48,543 nt of DNA from Rhodospirillales bacterium (GTDB taxonomy: Bacteria > Pseudomonadota > Alphaproteobacteria > BOG-932 > Roseiterribacteraceae). The translations under genes and the position numbers were made by a program. The notes under the pieces were generated by a model. That model ran no database searches, was not told the DNA's origin, and saw nothing but the letters and a program-made list of their open reading frames with translations. Below are positions 30,165 to 41,423 of the stretch, one piece after another; position 1 is the stretch's first letter; every line of letters begins with the position of its first letter. The stretch is from assembly GCA_028291345.1 (NCBI GenBank), contig JAQGIF010000379.1, positions 1 through 48,543 of the forward strand. Reading direction: 5' to 3'.

Positions 30165-31622
30165 CTAACGCACGCCCTCGGCCGCCAGCGTATCCGGCGA
30201 GAACTCGTGCGTGCTGTGGGGCGGCGTCGGTTTGAACGGTGCGCGTTCGTTGTTGAAGGCAAAGGCGAACACATACCCGCCCTCCTGCAGATCATAGATC
30301 AGTTCGCTCGCCAGAACGACGGCGGGCAGGTCCGGAACCATGTACATCGTGCCGTGGCTGAACTTCCAAAGGCGGCCGTCGGCGTCCCACGCGTCCGCAT
30401 AGACTGCGAACCAGGTGTCTTCATCGATATAGAAGCGGCGATGCGGTGCGAGGTGATGTTTGCCGGGCGCAAGCGTGGCATCGACAACCCAGACGCGATG
30501 AAGCTCATAGCGCAGAGCCGCGGGGTTGGCGTGCCGGGGCCCGGCTATGTCGGCGATCGCCGTGGCGTGGAACCGGTTGTTGTTATAGGGAATATACATC
30601 TCGCGCTTGCCGAGCAGCTTGAATTCGTACCGGTCGGGGCTGCCGCTGAAGATGTAGTAGTCGTCGAAGCTTTCGATGCCGCCCCCGTCGGGCGTGGGCG
30701 TGTCATAGGATAGCAGCGGCGATTTTCGTACGCGACGCTCGCGCGGCAGATATTGCCATGCCTGGACCGGATGACGCGCGATATTGCTAGCTGACCATAC
30801 CAGATAACCGCGGCCAGCCAGCCCCGGCGGACCGTCGCTGACCTCGCGCCTCAGAAAATAATAATCGCCGTAGGAGTCGGGCGTGGCACCGGGATAGTAA
30901 TATGGAAAGTCGATGATTTCATGATACTGATTCGATAGCTCCAGCGTGCCATCCGACGACACGACATAGTTTCGAATATTGTCTTCCCGCGCCGCCCCCC
31001 AATAGGCGAGTAAATGGTTCCAGATGACTTCAGCTCCGCTTTGGGGTATCGGAAATGGAATCCCGCCTACGGCGCCGGTCACCCCATAGGCGATGCCCTC
31101 GTCCGCTGCCTTGGCCCTCGTGGCATTGGCGAAGATATTGTCATAGACCGCCTGCGGCAGCGCCGCCGTCCGGTGGCTGGGATAGACATCCATCCGATAG
31201 TCGGGATATTTGGCAAATAGAGCTTTCTGCCCCTCGGGCAGCTGGTCCGCATAATTCCTGAAATTTGCCGCGGTGATCGAGAAAATCGGCTTCTCGTCTT
31301 TGAAGGGGTCGGGCCGCGCTTCGCCCGGCACATATCCGAGGGCGGGGGAAGTCTCGCCGCCTGTCCAGGGCGGAATAGTGCCCGCCGCGTTTCCCGCTCG
31401 CTCGGCGCCCACGGGGGTCAGGCTCGTTTTCAGCCGTCCCGCTTCGTCGGGCGAAACCGCCGCGCGCGCGAAATGAAGCGTTGGCCCAAGCAGCGCGGAC
31501 GTCAGAATGATCGCAAGGACGAGCCGCTGCCCGCTTGTGCCGGGACGTTTTGGGTGATTTGCCAAAATGGTCGTGCCGCCTCCCTGCCCTAGGGTGGCCT
31601 TCAATATCGCCATGGCCCCCAT
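30165..31622 (-). CDS. DUF1329 family exported protein
   Basis: This protein of about 485 residues has a signal peptide (QRLVLAIILTSALLGPTLHF-ARA) and then VSPDEAGRLKTSLTPVGAER and AGNAAGTIPPWTGG, the classic DUF1329 N-terminus. Further family stretches are DNIFANATRAKAADEGIAYG, GGIPFPIPQSGAEVIWNHL, DDYYIFSGSPDRYEFKLLGK, REMYIPYNNNRF and RRFYIDEDTWFAVYADAWD. DUF1329 proteins are periplasmic, LolB/LolA-like in fold, and usually encoded with DUF1302 proteins in clusters for hydrophobic compounds. The start is uncertain: ATG 31622, ATG 31613 or a TTG nearer the signal peptide. It is convergent with the anti-sigma gene. Two copies of a 13-bp sequence lie about 80 bp upstream. Confidence 0.85.
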   Translation of the reverse strand: MGAMAILKATLGQGGGTTILANHPKRPGTSGQRLVLAIILTSALLGPTLHFARAAVSPDEAGRLKTSLTPVGAERAGNAAGTIPPWTGGETSPALGYVPGEARPDPFKDEKPIFSITAANFRNYADQLPEGQKALFAKYPDYRMDVYPSHRTAALPQAVYDNIFANATRAKAADEGIAYGVTGAVGGIPFPIPQSGAEVIWNHLLAYWGAAREDNIRNYVVSSDGTLELSNQYHEIIDFPYYYPGATPDSYGDYYFLRREVSDGPPGLAGRGYLVWSASNIARHPVQAWQYLPRERRVRKSPLLSYDTPTPDGGGIESFDDYYIFSGSPDRYEFKLLGKREMYIPYNNNRFHATAIADIAGPRHANPAALRYELHRVWVVDATLAPGKHHLAPHRRFYIDEDTWFAVYADAWDADGRLWKFSHGTMYMVPDLPAVVLASELIYDLQEGGYVFAFAFNNERAPFKPTPPHSTHEFSPDTLAAEGVR

Positions 31623-31701
31623 AGATCGCAACCGCCCACAGATTGCAACTACCGGGACCAAGACAAGGCAATTGTCGCCGCGACCATTAAAGGCAACAGC
31701 T

Positions 31702-31744
31702 TTGGAATAAATCGCCCGGCGCGAACCGCCGTTGGAATAAATCG
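31702..31744. repeat. Direct repeat TTGGAATAAATCG x2, spaced by 30 bp
   Basis: The 13-base sequence TTGGAATAAATCG occurs at 31702-31714 and again at 31732-31744. The centre-to-centre distance of 30 bp is close to three helical turns. It lies in the divergent promoter region between the DUF1329 and propeller genes, so a regulator binding two sites on one face of the DNA is plausible. Confidence 0.5.
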
Positions 31745-31817
31745 TCAAGCCAACCGTCCATCCATCGAAGACAATATCCGGCGGTCGCCGGTCAACAGCT
31801 TTAAGGGAGTATTCTCA

Positions 31818-33584
31818 ATGCAAAGGACGTTCGCATGGACTGCCTTATCGTCTGCGACGCTGGCGGCTATGGCTCTTTTTTCGACGGTTCCGGCGGGCGC
31901 CGTATCGATCACGGAATTCCCGGGCGTCCTGGCTGGCACGGGCCCCAACGTCATCACTCTCGGACCCGACGGCGCGCTTTGGTATACGGAATTCGGGAGC
32001 AGTAAGATCGGCCGGATCACCACCGCGGGCGTCGTCACGGAATTCGCCACACCGCCGAACAGCACGCCCTATGGGATCACCACGGGGGCCGATGGGGCGC
32101 TGTGGATCTCCGATCAGGTGTCGCCCAAAATCCGGCGCATGACGACCGCCGGCGTCGTCACCGAATTCCCCATACCGAGCGGCAACACGACGTCCGGCAT
32201 CACCAGGGGACCCGACGGCAATATTTGGTTCACCGAACAAACCACGGCATCGATCGGGCGGATCACTCCGGCCGGAGTGATTCTCGAACTGCCGATCAGC
32301 GCCGGGTCGACAGGGCCGGCCCCCTATATGGGTTATAGCCTAGTCACTTCAGCCAACGGCGCGCCGACGACGATCGTGGCGGGGCCTGACGGGCTCATGT
32401 GGTTCACTGAAAAGAACGGCGCCAAGGTCGCTCGCCTCAATGCCGACACTTCGTCGACCGAATTCGCCATCAGCGGTCCGGCGATCGGCATCACGGCCGG
32501 CCCCGACGGCGCCCTCTGGTTCGTCGAGGAAGGGGCCAACAAAATCGGCCGGGTGACCACCGCCGGCATGGTGACCGAGTTCGCCGTGCCAACCCCAGGC
32601 AGTCTGCCTTTCGGTATTGCTTCAGGACCTGACGGTGCCCTCTGGTTCGCGGAATTCGGCGCGGGCAAGATCGGCCGCATCACGACCACGGGCGCGATAT
32701 CGGAATTCCCGGTTCCTAGCCCGAACAGCTCGGTCTACACGATCGTCAACGGGCCCGACCAGGCGCTGTGGTTCACCGAATCCGACGCCAACCGGATCGG
32801 CCGCCTGGATCCGGCGGCGAGTCCCAGCCCGCTCGTTTCCGCTGTCCTACCGACCAGCCGGTCGGTACAGGTAGGATCGACGGCGACCGTGTTCGCGACG
32901 CTCATCAACAGCGCGGGCACGCCGGCGACCGGGTGCCACATCGTGCCGATCACGCCTGTCGCCGCCAATTTCTCATACCAGGCGACGAATTCAGCAACCA
33001 ATGCCCCCATCGGCTCTGCGAATACGCCGGTCGATGTCGGGGCGGGTGCGGCGCAAAGCTTTGTCATCTCGTTTGCGACCGCCGCCGCCTTTGCCCCGAC
33101 CGACACGGCGCTCGGCTTTTCCTGCACCGGCGTACCGGCGGCATCCAACAATGTGGGGCTGAATACTCTCCTGCTCTCGGCCTCTCCTTCCCCGGTGCCC
33201 GATGTCGTCGCGCTGGCGGCGACGTTGAGCAGTGACGGCATTCTTAGTGTTCCCGGTGTTGCTGGATCGAACGCTTTTGCCGTCGCGACAGTGAATGTCG
33301 GTGCAGGCGGGGCCATTACCGCCGTCGCGGATACAGGCCCGGTGCTGCTGCCGGTGGCCATTTCGCTGTGTCAGACAAATCCGGCGAGCGGGAAGTGCAT
33401 CTCGGCGGTCGGGCCCAGCGTGACGACGACGATCAACGCCAATGAAACCCCGACTTTCGCGATCTTTGCGACAGCTAGCGGCGCGATACCGTTCGCACCG
33501 GCTTCAAATCGGATTTTTGTGCATTTGAAGGATGCGGGTGGTGTGGTCCGGGGATCGACAAGTGTTGCGCTGCGGACGCAGTGA
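31818..33584 (+). CDS. Exported seven-bladed beta-propeller protein, streptogramin-lyase-like, with C-terminal domain
   Basis: This 588-residue protein has a signal peptide (LSSATLAAMALFSTVPAGA) and then seven repeats of about 40-55 residues with the pattern G-P-D-G-A-L-W-F-T-E-x-x-x-x-K-I-G-R-I. They include GPDGALWYTEFGSSKIGRI, GADGALWISDQVSPKIRRM, GPDGNIWFTEQTTASIGRI, GPDGLMWFTEKNGAKVARL, GPDGALWFVEEGANKIGRV, GPDGALWFAEFGAGKIGRI and GPDQALWFTESDANRIGRL. This is the virginiamycin-B-lyase (Vgb) type of propeller. I see no histidine in the propeller region, so the catalytic His of Vgb is missing and lyase activity is unlikely. The last 250 residues (from LVSAVLPTSRSVQVGSTA) form a separate beta-rich domain with two to four cysteines. 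Role unknown; extracellular or periplasmic binding is likely. Confidence 0.8.
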   Translation: MQRTFAWTALSSATLAAMALFSTVPAGAVSITEFPGVLAGTGPNVITLGPDGALWYTEFGSSKIGRITTAGVVTEFATPPNSTPYGITTGADGALWISDQVSPKIRRMTTAGVVTEFPIPSGNTTSGITRGPDGNIWFTEQTTASIGRITPAGVILELPISAGSTGPAPYMGYSLVTSANGAPTTIVAGPDGLMWFTEKNGAKVARLNADTSSTEFAISGPAIGITAGPDGALWFVEEGANKIGRVTTAGMVTEFAVPTPGSLPFGIASGPDGALWFAEFGAGKIGRITTTGAISEFPVPSPNSSVYTIVNGPDQALWFTESDANRIGRLDPAASPSPLVSAVLPTSRSVQVGSTATVFATLINSAGTPATGCHIVPITPVAANFSYQATNSATNAPIGSANTPVDVGAGAAQSFVISFATAAAFAPTDTALGFSCTGVPAASNNVGLNTLLLSASPSPVPDVVALAATLSSDGILSVPGVAGSNAFAVATVNVGAGGAITAVADTGPVLLPVAISLCQTNPASGKCISAVGPSVTTTINANETPTFAIFATASGAIPFAPASNRIFVHLKDAGGVVRGSTSVALRTQ

Positions 33585-33607: not shown

Positions 33608-35923
33608 TTATTTTTCCTTCATCTGCCAGACGCCGATCCAGTCATCTGCCGGTGGATGCTCGATCATATATTTGCAACGGTCGATATAGGTCTGTGACAG
33701 GCGGTCCTTGGGGTGGCGCTCAAGGGCTTCCTGGAAATTCTCGATCGCTCGGCCGAATTCCCGTTTGCGGTAGATCCTGATGCCTTCGTTGAAATAGTTC
33801 ACCACGTCCATCAGATTCGGGAAGGTCTCGTCCGTATGGTAGTCGAGAACTTCATAGACGCCGACCGGCTCGGTCTTGCCCTTGACGATGACCATGTCGA
33901 TATCACGGACCCGATAGGTTCCGCGCAGCCTTTTATAGGTATTTTCGCTGATCAGGATACGCGCCGAATAGGCCTTGCAGGCGCTCTCCAGGCGTGAGGC
34001 CAGATTCACGCCGTCGCCGATCAGCGTGTAATCCATGCGCCGAGCCGAGCCGATATTGCCCGATACGACCATATCGGTGTTCAGCCCGATCCCCATATCC
34101 ACCGGTACAAATCCCTTGGCCACGCGCTCGGCGCTGTATTTCCAGCATTCGCGGATCATCGCGATCGACGCGCGAACAGCGCGATCTTCATCGTCGTCAT
34201 GCGGCATCGGCAGGCCGAACGCCGCCATGATCGCATCGCCGATGAACTTGTCGAGCATCCCCTCTTCTTTTGAGATCGCCTCGACCATGATCGTGAAGTA
34301 TTCGTTCAGGAACGACACCGTGCCTTGGGCGCCCAGCTGCTCGGTAATCGGCGTGAAGCCGCGAATGTCCGAGAACATGACAGTCGCGCGGGTGTTCTGG
34401 CCGCCCAGCATCCCGCCATCGTCGTTTTCCAGCATCCGTGCTGCGATCGTCGGGTCCATATAGCGGGACATCGTGGCCTTGACCCGCTTTTCCGTGCTGA
34501 TGTCTTCGATCATCAGCATGGTGCCCAACTGCTCGGCGTGGTCGGTCTTCAGCGGCAGGACGGAGAAATTGACCGTCGCCGTCGTCCCGCCGACGTCGAG
34601 CGCGACGTCCATCTGAATGTCGGAAGTCTTTTGCGTCTCGACCTTGGCGATCCGCTCCACGATCCATTCATTCTTGCCGACGAAGAAATCCGAGGCCTTC
34701 TTGCCGATGATGTCGGCGGCCTTGCACTGGAATATCTTCAGCCCGGCTTCGTTGCAGGTGACGACGACCCGGGATTCGGACAGCGTGACCACACCGTTCG
34801 ACATGCTGAGCAGCATGCTTTCGTTGTAGTTCTTCATCTTCTGGACGTCGTCGAACAGCTTCGCATTTTCGAGCGCAATCGCGACCTGGGCGGTAAAGGC
34901 TTTCAGCCGGGATTCGTCGTCTTCCGAGAACGGACCGCCCTTTTTGTTCAGCGCTTGGGTCACGCCGATCACCTTGCCGTATTTGTTCACGACCGGCGTG
35001 CAGAGGATCGAGCGGGTGAAGAACCCGGTCGTCTTGTCGAAGCCCGGATTGAACCGCAGATCGGCATAGGCGTGCGGGATATTGACGGTCTTGTTGGTGG
35101 TAAAGACGGTGCCGGCGATGCCGGCGTGGCTGGGCAACCGGATCTCGCCGACCTTCGATCCCTGCGCGACACGGGAAAACAGCGTGTCGGTCTTCTCGTC
35201 GTGCAGGAACAGGGTCGACCGTTCCGCATCCAGCATGCGGGTGGCTTCCGCCATGACCCGGGCCAGCAGCGAGTCGAGTTCCAGTTCCGAGGTAATGTCG
35301 GCGACGACGCTCAGGAATTCCATCTCTTGGGCGCGCACCTTGCGCATGCGTTCGACGAACTGCGAGCTGCGCAGCGCCGGTACAGCCATCTGCGCGATGT
35401 CGCTTAGCAGCGATGCGTCCTTTTCGGTAAACGCGCCGCTATGCTTGTTGAGACACTGGGCAACGCCGATCACCTCGTCCTTCACGGTCCGGATGGGGAC
35501 GCACAGGATGGTTTTCGTGGTGTAGCCGGTCTCCTTGTCGACATCGGCATTGAACCTAGGATCCGAATAGGCGTCATCGACGATCATCGGCTCGCGCGAT
35601 TGGAACACGGCGCCGCCGACGCCCTCACTGCTCGAGAAACGAATCTCCCGACGATGGATGCCCTGGGCACTGCGGGAAAATAACTCGTCGGTGTTCGGGT
35701 CGAATAGAAAGAAGCTGCTGCGATCCGCGCCGATCGCACGCGATGTCGTCTCGACCAGTGCGTCGAGGATTTCGTCCAGTGATTCGGTTCCCGATACGCG
35801 GCGCGATACGTTCAGCAGAATATCGAAATGGCGCAGTTGGCTCTGGAGATCTGCAATTTTCGGACGCTTGCCGTGTAATCGCAGATCGATCCCGCCGTGA
35901 TGTCCCAGATCACCGTCCGCCAT
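33608..35923 (-). CDS. GAF-GAF-PAS adenylate/guanylate cyclase
   Basis: This 771-residue soluble class III nucleotide cyclase is built as GAF (about 30-180: LLNVSRRVSGTESLDEIL, VGGAVFQSREPMIVDDAYSD), GAF (about 205-355: SLLARVMAEATRMLDAERST, AGIAGTVFTTNKTVNIPHAY), PAS-like (about 365-470: MSNGVVTLSESRVVVTCNE) and a C-terminal cyclase domain (about 500-690). Metal-binding aspartates are in ATVMFSDIRGFTPITEQLG and DKFIGDAIMAAFGLP. DKF carries the purine-specifying Lys, and MDYTLIGDGVNLASRLES provides Asp, Asn and Arg of the active site. These favour cAMP production. A charged tail region (KTEPVGVYEVLDYH onwards) follows. The start overlaps the upstream coiled-coil gene by 14 bases, so the two are made together. 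GAF domains may bind cyclic nucleotides and give feedback. Confidence 0.9.
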   Translation of the reverse strand: MADGDLGHHGGIDLRLHGKRPKIADLQSQLRHFDILLNVSRRVSGTESLDEILDALVETTSRAIGADRSSFFLFDPNTDELFSRSAQGIHRREIRFSSSEGVGGAVFQSREPMIVDDAYSDPRFNADVDKETGYTTKTILCVPIRTVKDEVIGVAQCLNKHSGAFTEKDASLLSDIAQMAVPALRSSQFVERMRKVRAQEMEFLSVVADITSELELDSLLARVMAEATRMLDAERSTLFLHDEKTDTLFSRVAQGSKVGEIRLPSHAGIAGTVFTTNKTVNIPHAYADLRFNPGFDKTTGFFTRSILCTPVVNKYGKVIGVTQALNKKGGPFSEDDESRLKAFTAQVAIALENAKLFDDVQKMKNYNESMLLSMSNGVVTLSESRVVVTCNEAGLKIFQCKAADIIGKKASDFFVGKNEWIVERIAKVETQKTSDIQMDVALDVGGTTATVNFSVLPLKTDHAEQLGTMLMIEDISTEKRVKATMSRYMDPTIAARMLENDDGGMLGGQNTRATVMFSDIRGFTPITEQLGAQGTVSFLNEYFTIMVEAISKEEGMLDKFIGDAIMAAFGLPMPHDDDEDRAVRASIAMIRECWKYSAERVAKGFVPVDMGIGLNTDMVVSGNIGSARRMDYTLIGDGVNLASRLESACKAYSARILISENTYKRLRGTYRVRDIDMVIVKGKTEPVGVYEVLDYHTDETFPNLMDVVNYFNEGIRIYRKREFGRAIENFQEALERHPKDRLSQTYIDRCKYMIEHPPADDWIGVWQMKEK

Positions 35924-36500
35924 TTTTCTCCAACTCCAGTCTCAGTACCGCTATCGTCTTTTGCAACTCCGCGAATTCGGCGCGCCGGGCGCGTTCGAGG
36001 CTCTGGAGCTCCGCCTCATGCTTGATCTTCATGCCGTCGGCGTCGTTTCGCAGCAGTTGGACCACTGTGCGCAGCTGCGAAACTTCGTCATTCGCCGATG
36101 ATAGGATCTTCTGGCGTTCTTCCTGATGGCCGTTCCGAAGCTCGTCATTGACGGCGCGCATTGATTGGATCGTTTCGCGCAATTGCTTGACCTCCTCACG
36201 CGACGCCGCGATCACGGCGGTGGCTTCGCGTTCGGCTTCGATCGCCGCCAGTTCGATCGCGCCGCGCATCGACTGGATCATGCTTCTAAGCTGCAGCATT
36301 TCTGCCTCGTAGGATGACCGAACTTCCTGGTTGCTGTGCTTAAGCTCGAGGCTCGCCAATTCGAGCTCTTCGCGTAGTGCATAGACGGCGGCGCGAAGCT
36401 GCCGAACTTCTGTCTCAAGTTCCGCCCGCTTGGCGTCTGCAAAATCGACAACGGTCTCCACTTCGACTACTGCCTCCAGTTGCATCGCGCGGGCGGACAA
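35910..36500 (-). CDS. Coiled-coil protein of five 36-residue repeats
   Basis: This 196-residue, highly charged helical protein has no signal peptide or membrane helix. From residue 31 to 187 it consists of five units of exactly 36 residues. Their heads align: EVRQLRAAVYALR (31-43), EMLQLRSMIQSMR (67-79), EVKQLRETIQSMR (103-115), EVSQLRTVVQLLR (139-151) and EFAELQKTIAVLR (175-187). The remainder of each unit is Glu/Ala/Lys-rich. Thirty-six residues equals two hendecads plus two heptads, which suggests a coiled coil with a mixed and strictly periodic register. The gene lies 12 bases after the MBL-hydrolase gene and overlaps the start of the GAF-PAS cyclase gene. A role as a scaffold or spacer linking these enzymes is inferred. 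I do not recognise a named family. Confidence 0.8.
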   Translation of the reverse strand: MSARAMQLEAVVEVETVVDFADAKRAELETEVRQLRAAVYALREELELASLELKHSNQEVRSSYEAEMLQLRSMIQSMRGAIELAAIEAEREATAVIAASREEVKQLRETIQSMRAVNDELRNGHQEERQKILSSANDEVSQLRTVVQLLRNDADGMKIKHEAELQSLERARRAEFAELQKTIAVLRLELEKNGGR

Positions 36501-36512
36501 TTGTCCACCAAA

Positions 36513-37331
36513 TTACAGCGATATAACCATTCCCTCATGCGCGATAACTGCATTTGCATTTACTTTTTCAAGCTCGGCCGCAATCCCGTCCAGCGTATCG
36601 TCTGTATGGCTCGGATCATGATGGAAAAGCACAAGTTTTTTCACCGACGCCTGTTTGGCAAGCTTCGCTGCTTCCTGCCAGGTCGAATGCCCCCAGCCGG
36701 CATGCACTACATACTCCGCTTCTGTGTAAGTCGCATCATAGATCATGACATCCACGCCTTCGATCAGGCGGAGCACGTTGGCGTCAAGCTCGTCGGGCCG
36801 ATGTTCGGTATCGGTGATGTAGGCCACCGACCTTCCTTCCCATTCCACCCGGTATCCCGTTGCCCCGCCGGGGTGATTAAGCGGCGCGGTGCGTACAGTG
36901 ATGCCTTCTCTGGGCGAGAATGTGTTGCCGGCCTCAAAATCCTTGAACTCCAGATGCGCCGAGATCACGTCCACCAGATTCGGCAGATAGGGCTCCGACA
37001 GCGAGGTCGTCAGTACGTCGTGAATGCGCATCCCTGGCGGAAGATGGCCGGCCCAGAAACGCAGGCTGTTCGCCGGGCTGAAACAGGGCGCAAAGAAGGC
37101 GATTCCGCATATATGATCGAAATGCGTGTGGCTGCAGAGGATTTCGGCATGGACTGGTTTCTTCTCGGCGAACAGCGCGCCTCCCAGCCCTCTCAAACCC
37201 GTGCCGGCGTCGAAAATCAGCAGGTCTTCGCCGCAACGCAGCTCGACGCAGGACGTGTTGCCGCCATATCGTACGGTGTTAGGTCCGGGGCAGGGAATGC
37301 TGCCCCGCACGCCCCAAAAGCGGACTTGCAT
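36513..37331 (-). CDS. MBL-fold metallo-hydrolase (phosphodiesterase-like)
   Basis: This protein of about 272 residues opens with MQVRFWGVRGSIPCPGPNTV and RYGGNTSCVELR, followed by LLIFDAGTGLRGLG, the standard entrance of PhnP-like/COG1235 hydrolases. The metal-binding motif is CSHTHFDHICG; further ligands are probably the His in APLNHPGGATGY, the Asp in YITDTEHR, and the final His in LVLFHHDPSHTDD. HAGWGHSTWQEAAKLA is another conserved helix entry. Relatives include RNase Z-like and cyclic-nucleotide phosphodiesterases. With cyclase genes on both sides, degradation of cAMP is a reasonable guess but is not shown. It is the first gene of a three-gene operon with the coiled-coil protein and the GAF-PAS cyclase. 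A TTG 18 bases upstream is an alternative start. Confidence 0.85.
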   Translation of the reverse strand: MQVRFWGVRGSIPCPGPNTVRYGGNTSCVELRCGEDLLIFDAGTGLRGLGGALFAEKKPVHAEILCSHTHFDHICGIAFFAPCFSPANSLRFWAGHLPPGMRIHDVLTTSLSEPYLPNLVDVISAHLEFKDFEAGNTFSPREGITVRTAPLNHPGGATGYRVEWEGRSVAYITDTEHRPDELDANVLRLIEGVDVMIYDATYTEAEYVVHAGWGHSTWQEAAKLAKQASVKKLVLFHHDPSHTDDTLDGIAAELEKVNANAVIAHEGMVISL

Positions 37332-37498
37332 TTTATCCGGTTCAACCAAGCTGCAATCCTCATGCGTAGGTCAGTCCATGTTATGTTATAACGCGGACTG
37401 CTGATGAACGGCTTATGCAATTCGCCAAAATACCTTTTACGATGTCTAATATAAAGCGGATCAAGCGCGTGAATTGTCCGTGAAAGGCGCCGGCTTCA

Positions 37499-37913: not shown

Positions 37914-39047
37914 TTGATGAACGCTTCACGGCGTCTGTTGTCCTCGGTCAGTGCGATAACCATCGCCTGGCTCAATACACTGGCCTCGCCCATTGTCCTA
38001 GCCGATGTGGCTAAGGCCGGCACCGCCTCGACCGTGAAGGGGACCTCTGTGACCGGCGTCCTCGGTGCGGATTCGAGTGTTATCGTGGTCGGCAAGGACA
38101 TATTTGCAGACGAGTTTGTGAATACCGACACTACGAGCTCGACCGAACTTATGTTCCTGGATCAGACCAATTTGACGATCACGCCCGGATCGTCAGTGAA
38201 GATCGATAAGTTCGTCTTCGATCCGAACGGCAAGAAGGGCACGGTCGTTTTCAATGTGGCGCGCGGCTCGCTGCGCTTCGTCACCGGATCCCAGGATCCG
38301 ACCAGCTATCAGATCAAGACGCCCGTCGCGACGATCGGCGTTCGCGGCACGATCGTGAATTTTATAACGACCGACGGCGGCTTGGCTGTACAGCTCGAGG
38401 ATGGGACCGCCGGCGTGATCGGGACGAACGGCGTCCTTACGCCGATGAGTCCCGCGACGCAGCTTGCTGTGTTCGGCGTGACCGGCTCGGTGGCCACCGC
38501 CGCCAACGGCGGTCTCGCCGCCGCGGTCGGTGCCTTGCTCGTCGGCTCCGCCAACCCGGCTACCACGGCGGCCTCGCTGCTTGTGGTCGCCGGTAACAGC
38601 ACCGGCGCGTTGGCCGCTGTCGCCGCGGCTGCCGTTGCGAGCGCGGTGTCCGCCGCGGGCATCTCTCCGGCCGCCTTGACGGCCGCCGTCGCAGCCGCGG
38701 TCACGACGTCATCGAACCCGGCCGCCGCCGCCGCATCGGTGGTCAGTAGTTCCGCGACGCTGTCGCCCAGCCTGGCGTCTTCCACGGGTGCCGGCCTTGC
38801 GACGGCGGCAACATCTCTGGCGGCCAGTGACCCGACAGCTGCGGCCGCAATCGTAACTGTCGCCTCAACCTCGACGAATGCCGCAATCTCGGATCCGGTC
38901 GCCGCGGTTGCGCAGGCCGTCGCGAATACGCCCCCGGCAGCACCGCCCCCTCCGCCTCCGCCTCCTCCGCCGCCGCCGCCTCCTCCTCCTCCGCCTCCTC
39001 CGCCTCCTCCGCCGGTGGTGCCACCGCCGCAAAACAGCCCGCACTGA
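37914..39047 (+). CDS. FecR-domain protein with polyproline C-terminus
   Basis: This 377-residue exported protein has a signal peptide (VSAITIAWLNTLASPIVLA) and a FecR domain at about 35-170: VIVVGKDIFADEFVNTDTTS, STELMFLDQTNLTITPGSSV, KIDKFVFDP, NVARGSLRFVTG and TPVATIGVRGTIVNF. This is the periplasmic sensing fold of FecR, without the N-terminal anti-sigma part. Residues about 180-335 are Ala/Ser/Thr-rich and of low complexity. After TPPAA comes a run of 24 prolines (38943-39014), then VVPPPQNSPH. Poly-Pro of this length needs EF-P for translation and makes a stiff extension. The CHASE2 cyclase gene follows 135 bp downstream, a pairing seen in other Proteobacteria, so this protein may supply the periplasmic input to the cyclase. 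Confidence 0.85.
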   Translation: MMNASRRLLSSVSAITIAWLNTLASPIVLADVAKAGTASTVKGTSVTGVLGADSSVIVVGKDIFADEFVNTDTTSSTELMFLDQTNLTITPGSSVKIDKFVFDPNGKKGTVVFNVARGSLRFVTGSQDPTSYQIKTPVATIGVRGTIVNFITTDGGLAVQLEDGTAGVIGTNGVLTPMSPATQLAVFGVTGSVATAANGGLAAAVGALLVGSANPATTAASLLVVAGNSTGALAAVAAAAVASAVSAAGISPAALTAAVAAAVTTSSNPAAAAASVVSSSATLSPSLASSTGAGLATAATSLAASDPTAAAAIVTVASTSTNAAISDPVAAVAQAVANTPPAAPPPPPPPPPPPPPPPPPPPPPPPPVVPPPQNSPH

Positions 39048-39182
39048 TCGGTGGACGAAAGCCTATTCACAATTGATGCGGCGAATGCCAAAAGTTTGCT
39101 GATAAATACAAATACTCACCAACTATAAAACGCGCGGCCTATGCGCCGCAGGACCTAAGGGAATGCAGATGTTGTTTGCTGG

Positions 39183-41423
39183 ATGGATGCAGTGAATTTC
39201 GTTCGCCGTGGGCGCAAGCTGCTCTATCCCCTTTTCGTGCTGGGTATAGTTGCCCTATTCGTCGTCATCGGCATGGCCAACCCGTTCTTCGTCCAATCGG
39301 TCAGGCTGCTGACGTTCGACAGCATGCAAAAGCTGGCGCCGCGCGCTTATGACGAGCGGCAGCCCGTGCGTGTCGTCGATATCGATGACAAGTCGCTTGA
39401 GGTGCTGGGCCAGTGGCCCTGGCCGCGGACCGTCATGGCCGAATTGATCGGCAAGATCGGCGCCGCGGGCGCGGCATCGATCACCACCGATATTATCTAT
39501 GCCGAGCCTGACCGCACGTCGCTCGGCCGCTACACGAAGAACCTGCCGGCCGATAAAGCCGATGAGGTGGCAAAGCTCGTCGGCGGCCCGCTCGACAACG
39601 ACGCCGTCTTTGCCGACACGATCAGCAAGCTGCCGGTGGTGCTCGGTACCGTCCTGATCGATGACGGCAGCCCGAAGGTCCCGACGCAGAAATCCGGCTT
39701 CGCCGTCGCCGGCGACGATCCGCGGCCCTTCCTGCATGGCTTCACGGGTGTGCTGCCGAATCTGCCGGCGCTCGATACTGCGGCCTCGGGTATCGGCGCG
39801 ACCAACTGGATTCCGGACCATGACGGCATCATCCGCCGCGTGCCGCTGATGTTCCGCGCGGGCGACAAATATGTTCCCTCGCTAGCCGCCGAAGCGCTAC
39901 GCGTTGCGCAGGGTGCCGGTTCCTTTGTGCTAAAGGCGTCGAACGCCAGCGGCGAGACAGCCTACGGCGCGAAGACCGGCCTCAATCACATCAAAATCGG
40001 CGCGATCGAGGCGCCGACCGATGCCGATGGCGGCATCTGGCCGCGCTTCCGGCATTTCGATGCGCGCAGCTATATCCCCGCCTGGAAGGTCATGTCAGGA
40101 GATATCGCGCCTGATGCGCTCAACGGCGATCTCGTACTGCTCGGCATCAGCGCGCCGGGCCTCAAGGACGTCCGGGCGACGCCGCTCGATTCCACCGTTC
40201 CGGGTGTCGAGCTTCACGTTCAGATGCTGGAGCAGTTGCTGACCGGTGTGCGGCTGACCCGCCCGGATTACGCGCCGCCGCTGGAGCTGGTCTTTACGAT
40301 CGTGGCCAGCCTGCTGATCGCGGTGCTGCTGCCGCGTGTGCGGGCAAGCTATTCGTCGGCGCTGGCCGTCGTGATCGTCGCCGGAATCTTCGGTTACGCC
40401 TGGTACGCCTTCACCAAGCAGAGCCTGCTGTTCGATCCGGTCAACCCGTCGCTCGCGGTGACGGTCATGTTCTTCGCCTGCACGGCCTGGACCTACCGCC
40501 AGACGCAAAATCAGAAAGGTGAGATCCGCAAGGCTTTCGGTCAGTATCTGTCGCCGGATGTAGTTCAGCAGCTCATTGCCAATCCGGAAAAGCTCGCGCT
40601 GGGCGGCGAGGAGCGCCCACTGACGATCATGTTTTGCGACGTGCGGAACTTCACGTCGCTCTCCGAGTCTCTTGACGCGCAGGGGCTGACCCATTTTATC
40701 AATACGCTGCTGACGCCGCTGACCGGCGCGATCCTCGAGCGGCGCGGCACCGTCGACAAATATATGGGCGACGCCATCATGGCGTTCTGGAACGCCCCCT
40801 TGCCGCTCGACGGGCATGCCCGCAACGCGGTCGAGGCGGCCATTGCGATGGCCAATTCGATGCCCGACTTCAACGTGCGATGGAAGGCCGAGATGGAGGC
40901 CGCGGGCCGGGTCTATAAGGAGGTCAAGATCGGGATCGGCCTCAATACCGGTGTGGCTTGCGTCGGCAATCTGGGATCGGATCAGCGCTTCGATTATTCC
41001 GTGATCGGCGACGAGGTGAATATCGCGTCGCGCTTCGAAGGTTTGACCAAGCAATATGGCATGACTCTCGCCATTGGCGAGCGGACTGCGGAGGAGGTCT
41101 CCGGTTCAGGCTTGGGGACGCTGGAAATCGACCTCGTTCGGGTCAAGGGCCGTGTTACGCCCTCGCGTCTCTTCACCCTGACGGAAACGCTGAATGTTCC
41201 CGAAGGCCGCACGCCGGAGCTTATGGAAATGCATGCCGCCTTCATCACCGCCTATCGCAGCCAGCAATGGGACGAGGCGATCGCGCTCAAGGTCAAGCTG
41301 ACCGCGATCGGCGTTCCCGGCCTCGAAAAGCTGTATGAGATCTACACACACCGTATCGAGGACTACCTCGCCAACCCGCCGGGCGCGGATTGGGACGGCG
41401 CGTATACCGCAACTGAGAAATAA
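39183..41423 (+). CDS. CHASE2-domain adenylate cyclase
   Basis: This 746-residue inner-membrane class III cyclase has a first membrane helix at about 15-36 (LLYPLFVLGIVALFVVIGMA) and a periplasmic CHASE2 sensor at about 45-360 (VRVVDIDDKSLEVLGQWPWP-RT, TDIIYAEPDR, GATNWIPDHDGIIRRVPLMF, LVLLGISAPGLKDVRATPLD and VPGVELHVQMLEQLL). Three more helices lie at about 370-440. The cytoplasmic cyclase domain is at about 470-640. Metal aspartates are in LTIMFCDVRNFTSLSESLD and DKYMGDAIMAFWNAPLP; Lys of DKYMGD and FDYSVIGDEVNIASRFEG give adenine specificity and the Asn/Arg pair. All catalytic residues are present, so cAMP synthesis controlled by a periplasmic signal is expected. It is downstream of the FecR-domain gene and convergent with dodecin. 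Confidence 0.92.
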   Translation: MDAVNFVRRGRKLLYPLFVLGIVALFVVIGMANPFFVQSVRLLTFDSMQKLAPRAYDERQPVRVVDIDDKSLEVLGQWPWPRTVMAELIGKIGAAGAASITTDIIYAEPDRTSLGRYTKNLPADKADEVAKLVGGPLDNDAVFADTISKLPVVLGTVLIDDGSPKVPTQKSGFAVAGDDPRPFLHGFTGVLPNLPALDTAASGIGATNWIPDHDGIIRRVPLMFRAGDKYVPSLAAEALRVAQGAGSFVLKASNASGETAYGAKTGLNHIKIGAIEAPTDADGGIWPRFRHFDARSYIPAWKVMSGDIAPDALNGDLVLLGISAPGLKDVRATPLDSTVPGVELHVQMLEQLLTGVRLTRPDYAPPLELVFTIVASLLIAVLLPRVRASYSSALAVVIVAGIFGYAWYAFTKQSLLFDPVNPSLAVTVMFFACTAWTYRQTQNQKGEIRKAFGQYLSPDVVQQLIANPEKLALGGEERPLTIMFCDVRNFTSLSESLDAQGLTHFINTLLTPLTGAILERRGTVDKYMGDAIMAFWNAPLPLDGHARNAVEAAIAMANSMPDFNVRWKAEMEAAGRVYKEVKIGIGLNTGVACVGNLGSDQRFDYSVIGDEVNIASRFEGLTKQYGMTLAIGERTAEEVSGSGLGTLEIDLVRVKGRVTPSRLFTLTETLNVPEGRTPELMEMHAAFITAYRSQQWDEAIALKVKLTAIGVPGLEKLYEIYTHRIEDYLANPPGADWDGAYTATEK

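Follow-up and report, generated by a model that had tools for sequence, protein, structure and literature searches.

Fixed long repeats occur in coiled coils of the FilP/Scy class. These scaffold proteins are long rods in which heptads and hendecads are mixed (PMC9858780). The S-helix is a parallel coiled coil of about 40 residues that is linked to sensory and cyclase domains within one protein and carries a central ERT signature (PMC1592074). Among adenylate cyclases, CyaB1 and CyaB2 of Anabaena display a GAF-GAF-PAS-class III cyclase layout with an NK...F...DE motif in the second GAF domain, and the titles and abstracts found on these enzymes mention no rod. In the anti-phage system Pycsar, the class III cyclase PycC has a neighbouring effector that is activated by cyclic nucleotides. 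Here we analysed a stretch of 48,543 nucleotides from a Rhodospirillales bacterium (contig JAQGIF010000379.1, hereafter the window), in which a coiled-coil rod is encoded directly upstream of a cyclase with the CyaB1/CyaB2 layout and motif. Unlike FilP and Scy, this rod has a period of 36 residues, is always paired with a cyclase and lacks a DivIVA-like N-terminal domain (Pfam DivIVA matched neither the window protein nor five relatives). It differs from the S-helix in being a separate gene, in its tandem 36-residue unit and in a head consensus without ERT. The rod-paired cyclases in turn form a clade separate from CyaB1 and CyaB2, distinguished by the upstream 36-residue-repeat rod.

The rod gene was delimited from the open reading frame list and the repeat statistics at 35910..36500 on the minus strand, giving 196 amino acids from a TTG at 36500. 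The ATG at 36485 (191 amino acids) is the more likely start codon, because the same-genus homologue L080 begins MMHLEAVVEV at the equivalent ATG. In the TTG numbering, heads start at residues 31, 67, 103, 139 and 175, every spacing being 36. The head of the N-terminal repeat, EVRQLRAAVYALREELE, covers residues 31-47 (36360..36410, minus strand as are all five) and is followed by EMLQLRSMIQSMRGAIE (residues 67-83, 36252..36302), EVKQLRETIQSMRAVND (residues 103-119, 36144..36194), EVSQLRTVVQLLRNDAD (residues 139-155, 36036..36086) and, in the C-terminal repeat, EFAELQKTIAVLRLELE (residues 175-191, 35928..35978), which stops five residues before the protein end. Autocorrelation of the rod sequence peaks at lags of 36, 72 and 108, and no shuffle by composition (2,000 runs) or by hydrophobic/polar class (another 2,000) reached its periodicity value, which bears out the five heads at an exact 36-residue period that the original prediction had read from the sequence. 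Tandem Repeats Finder reported no tandem repeat in the DNA of the rod gene, since the protein repeats share a mean identity of only about 26%; together these two results indicate an old repeat whose length has been held constant.

Homologues of the rod were collected with three query types, namely the rod protein, the adjacent cyclase and a repeat profile. The profile is biased towards a period of 36 by construction, whereas the cyclase-based searches are unbiased and reach the same rods. The 42 related proteins thus obtained contain 256 units, from 2 to 14 per protein, and the spacing is 36 in 214 of 214 cases. The only other spacing, the last one (38) in a natural coil-cyclase fusion from genome G169, runs across a proline-rich stretch; this fusion was left out of the 42-protein set. 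When heads were scanned with a matrix that assumes no period (score of at least 6), 253 were in phase and 1 was off phase, and among six-frame open reading frames totalling 502,408 residues, 43 frames carried 36-spaced heads and a single other site scored at least 12. Irregular spacing in homologues, the sign of a coincidental period, was thus sought and not encountered in these proteins, and homologues differing in repeat number, which the original prediction had proposed to look for, do exist. A coiled coil would accept insertions of 7, 11 or 18 residues; no indel of these sizes was found among the 214 spacings in the 42 proteins, and the exact unit length is kept even between units only 19-30% identical. 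Judged from these sequences, the 36-residue period is supported as a conserved, selected property of the rod.

Each unit is made up of a 17-residue head (positions 1-17, two heptads) and a looser, hendecad-like spacer of 19 residues (positions 18-36). The hydrophobic pattern agrees with the predicted composition of two hendecads plus two heptads, and the harmonic that fits the unit best is 36/10, or 3.6 residues per turn. The head consensus is E-I-x-Q-L-[KRQ]-x-T-[IV]-x-A-L-R-[DE]-x-L-[ED], with weighted conservation of 83% at Glu1, 91% at Leu5, 99% at Arg13 and 98% at Glu/Asp17, and prolines account for just 2 of 8,418 repeat residues. The core residues of the spacer are small or charged, as expected of hendecads, and an undistorted helix has about 3.63 residues per turn (PMC9858780). 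This value lies so close to 3.6 that hardly any supercoil would result and the heads would all face one way. The AlphaFold2 model of the window rod is a single unbroken helix from residue 3 to 194 with a mean pLDDT of 91, and the rod is expected to be nearly straight and nearly unsupercoiled. With a helix rise of 1.5 Angstrom per residue, a unit is computed to span about 54 Angstrom (36 x 1.5) from head to head. We infer a parallel homodimer, because E1-K6 and T8-R13 are likely edge positions. The heads are plausible candidates for evenly spaced binding sites along the rod; the polar positions with the highest conservation (1, 6, 8 and 13) border the core and may perhaps only specify helix pairing.

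The partner, at 33608..35923 on the minus strand, is a 771-amino-acid GAF-GAF-PAS-class III adenylate cyclase with a TPR-like C-terminus, assigned from Pfam (two GAF domains, PAS and Guanylate_cyc), from PDB 1ykd and from co-occurrence with the rod. The tandem-GAF structure 1ykd, from Anabaena CyaB2, is the best match of the window cyclase by sequence and also the top fold match for its fusion relative in G169. Residues D636, K676, D680, N757 and R761 are invariant among the relatives (alignment A3), a set that covers the metal-binding Asp pair, the substrate Lys and the transition-state Asn/Arg. The second GAF domain, a candidate site for activation by bound cAMP, carries the motif NK-x4-F-x3-DE (NKKGGPFSEDDE). 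The rod stop and the cyclase start overlap by 14 nt (35910..35923, minus strand), which confirms the predicted overlap of the two genes, and a Shine-Dalgarno-like GGAG for the cyclase sits within the rod gene; this arrangement suggests translational coupling. An anti-phage reading of the Pycsar type was rejected, as the PADLOC PycC models match the shared catalytic domain only. The conserved neighbour of the cyclase is the rod, which no PADLOC model matches, in place of the effector found beside PycC.

The rod is an obligate partner of this CyaB2-related tandem-GAF/PAS class III adenylate cyclase. A search with the rod profile and an independent search with the cyclase retrieved the identical 26 of 398 genomes. 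In every locus fetched the rod lies directly upstream of the cyclase, usually overlapping it or separated by a gap of at most about 120 nt; the two genes are about 400 nt apart in Desulfonema magnum. Cyclases at least 53% identical to that of the window always have a rod, and those at 35-48% identity have none. In the tree, the rod-bearing cyclases fall on one side of a branch with support of 100/100 (42 rows versus 12). The fusion in G169 (L148:4270-6936, 888 amino acids) joins a three-unit rod in frame to the cyclase N-terminus, upstream of GAF-A. Its linker is proline-rich, so no direct rigid signal would pass from the rod there. Co-occurrence, adjacency, a single clade and this fusion all show that coil and cyclase belong together, as originally proposed.

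A 16S fragment of the window genome shares 91% identity with Skermanella and 90% with Indioceanicola, which probably places the host among the azospirilla-like lineages of the alphaproteobacteria. The pair is patchily distributed. Of the 142 genomes in the relatives sample, 13 yielded the rod. Two near-complete genomes from the family to which the window belongs lack the pair, and it is present in other classes of the same phylum and in Thermodesulfobacteriota; a contig search with the window rod protein alone matched only D. magnum. A magnetosome link, prompted by the lineages matched, was rejected. The magnetochrome domain PF18509 is absent from the window genome and present in just 12 of 43 rod genomes. 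Some magnetotactic bacteria therefore have the pair, but it is not tied to magnetosomes. One genome of family f160 (L194, G271:C113) has ten magnetochrome-domain matches and the other sampled members of that family have none; it is possibly a lone magnetotactic member. Two loci deviate from the intact pair. At L193:5220-5915 (G590) the rod gene is followed by only the last 96 or so residues of the cyclase, probably a decayed pair, a misassembled copy or an assembly gap. In L092 (G127:C135) the reading frame of the cyclase is interrupted by a TGA codon or otherwise broken near residues 122-141 in the numbering of the window cyclase, possibly reflecting a pseudogene or a sequencing error.

The number of units changes readily. 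Within genus g220, rods have 11, 5, 5, 7 and 7 units, and the cyclases that were compared share 88-89% identity. In these rods, one or two units at the start and three at the end can be matched one to one, and it is the middle units that have been gained or lost. Some adjacent units in D. magnum are identical, a sign of recent duplication. A division of N- and C-terminal units into distinct classes is clear within one genus and not significant over all lineages. The distance from the last head start to the protein end is 18-38 residues in nearly all proteins, mostly 20-24. Since rod length is not fixed, a molecular ruler is disfavoured, and the changing unit number with kept ends argues for a modular scaffold or a tether. 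The stoichiometric assembly that had been proposed from the gene overlap is unsupported, because units vary from 2 to 14, even among near-identical cyclases; the 14-nt overlap suggests only coupling.

A metallo-beta-lactamase-fold protein is encoded upstream of the rod (36513..37349, minus strand), outside the conserved module. Among the rod loci examined, the only other one with such a gene beside the rod is in G001, which belongs to the same genus. The predicted complex with this protein thus finds no support, and we rejected it as a third subunit, its adjacency being restricted to its own genus. On the plus strand, 37914-41423 adjoins the rod-cyclase pair and contains a gene for a FecR-domain protein whose tail is rich in proline (triplet repeats at 38943-39014) and, after it, one for a CHASE2-class III adenylate cyclase; two of the three class III cyclases of the window genome lie within 8 kb. 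L080, L082, L191 and L192 likewise have a CHASE2 cyclase in the vicinity of the pair. On the other side, a gene at 31818-33584 (plus strand) runs divergently from a DUF1329 gene at 30165-31748 (minus strand); the 588-amino-acid product of the former combines a virginiamycin B lyase-like propeller with an additional C-terminal region.

The sequence comparisons make a scaffold or tether dedicated to its cyclase the probable role of the rod. Our leading, if tentative, reading is that the straight rod would be a modular scaffold arraying several cyclase dimers. A rod of n 36-residue units (5 here, 2-14 elsewhere) would serve the cyclase encoded right behind it, and its near-zero supercoil would align the heads on one face at intervals of about 54 Angstrom. 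The cyclase would dock on the rod, most simply via its N-terminal region, since this is where the rod sits in the G169 fusion; a comparison of cyclases with and without a rod revealed no rod-specific conserved patch in GAF-A or the N-terminal helix. Several cyclase dimers lined up in this way might make cAMP locally or cooperatively. It is a rather unlikely further step that the whole forms a cAMP-signalling array with one cyclase-docking site per unit, its size tuned by in-phase gain and loss of units.

The rod might instead be a tether of free length, a reading that we consider less likely than the scaffold: the C-terminal repeat would hold the cyclase, the N-terminal end would anchor elsewhere (the pole, the membrane or another protein), and the middle units would be mere spacers, held in phase by the need for a straight rod. 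The orthologous end repeats with variable middle units in one genus, the near-constant C-terminal ending and the position of the rod at the cyclase N-terminus in the fusion all fit such a tether. However, key positions are no less conserved in the middle heads than in the end heads, Arg13 reaching its 99% over all units, and a pure spacer would not need key positions beyond the core; nor did Pfam recognise an anchor domain at the rod N-terminus. Improbable by comparison is an in-trans regulator that pairs with or clamps the helical linkers of the cyclase and sets its dimer state in the manner of a signalling helix. The obligate pairing, the overlap with its possible translational coupling and a fusion upstream of GAF-A are what such a regulator would predict, but 5 to 11 units with almost the same cyclase are unexpected if the contact is register-sensitive, and the head consensus is without the S-helix signature. 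The likeness of the heads to the GAF-B/PAS linker is also weak and equally found in rodless cyclases, and the heads were for that reason rejected as mimics of this linker helix.

If the rod assembled itself into cytoskeleton-like filaments, with the cyclase as their cargo or regulator, this would account for the variable rod length and for a fixed long heptad/hendecad repeat, as in bacterial coiled-coil cytoskeletal proteins (PMC9858780). We regard it as improbable too, because DivIVA-like, crescentin and other cytoskeletal models all score below cut-off, some rods have just 2-4 units, and strict pairing with one cyclase clade would be unusual in a general cytoskeleton. Least of all do we expect that the period simply reflects the duplication of units in a structural coiled coil and that its phase has no function. 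Recent whole-unit duplications such as those in D. magnum make this conceivable, but the length conserved in strongly diverged units and the missing indels tell so clearly against it that we hold it very improbable.

We found no entry describing the rod in Pfam, NCBIfam, PADLOC or among solved structures. The window rod scores below cut-off in all curated coiled-coil families of Pfam and NCBIfam, its relatives give scattered and mutually inconsistent coiled-coil matches, some above cut-off, and a PDB sequence search with the rod returned nothing. Full-text literature searches yielded no description of the rod, nor did the literature searched reveal a scaffold for any soluble tandem-GAF adenylate cyclase from bacteria. 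Coiled-coil scaffolds and tandem-GAF cyclases are already known, and it is their obligate, repeat-counted pairing that appears new. The rod is a coiled coil with frozen phase but free length. The same cyclase combined with 5-, 7- and 11-unit rods in one genus, together with the fusion, constitutes a natural experiment, and the effect of cyclase clustering on cAMP output is therefore directly testable.
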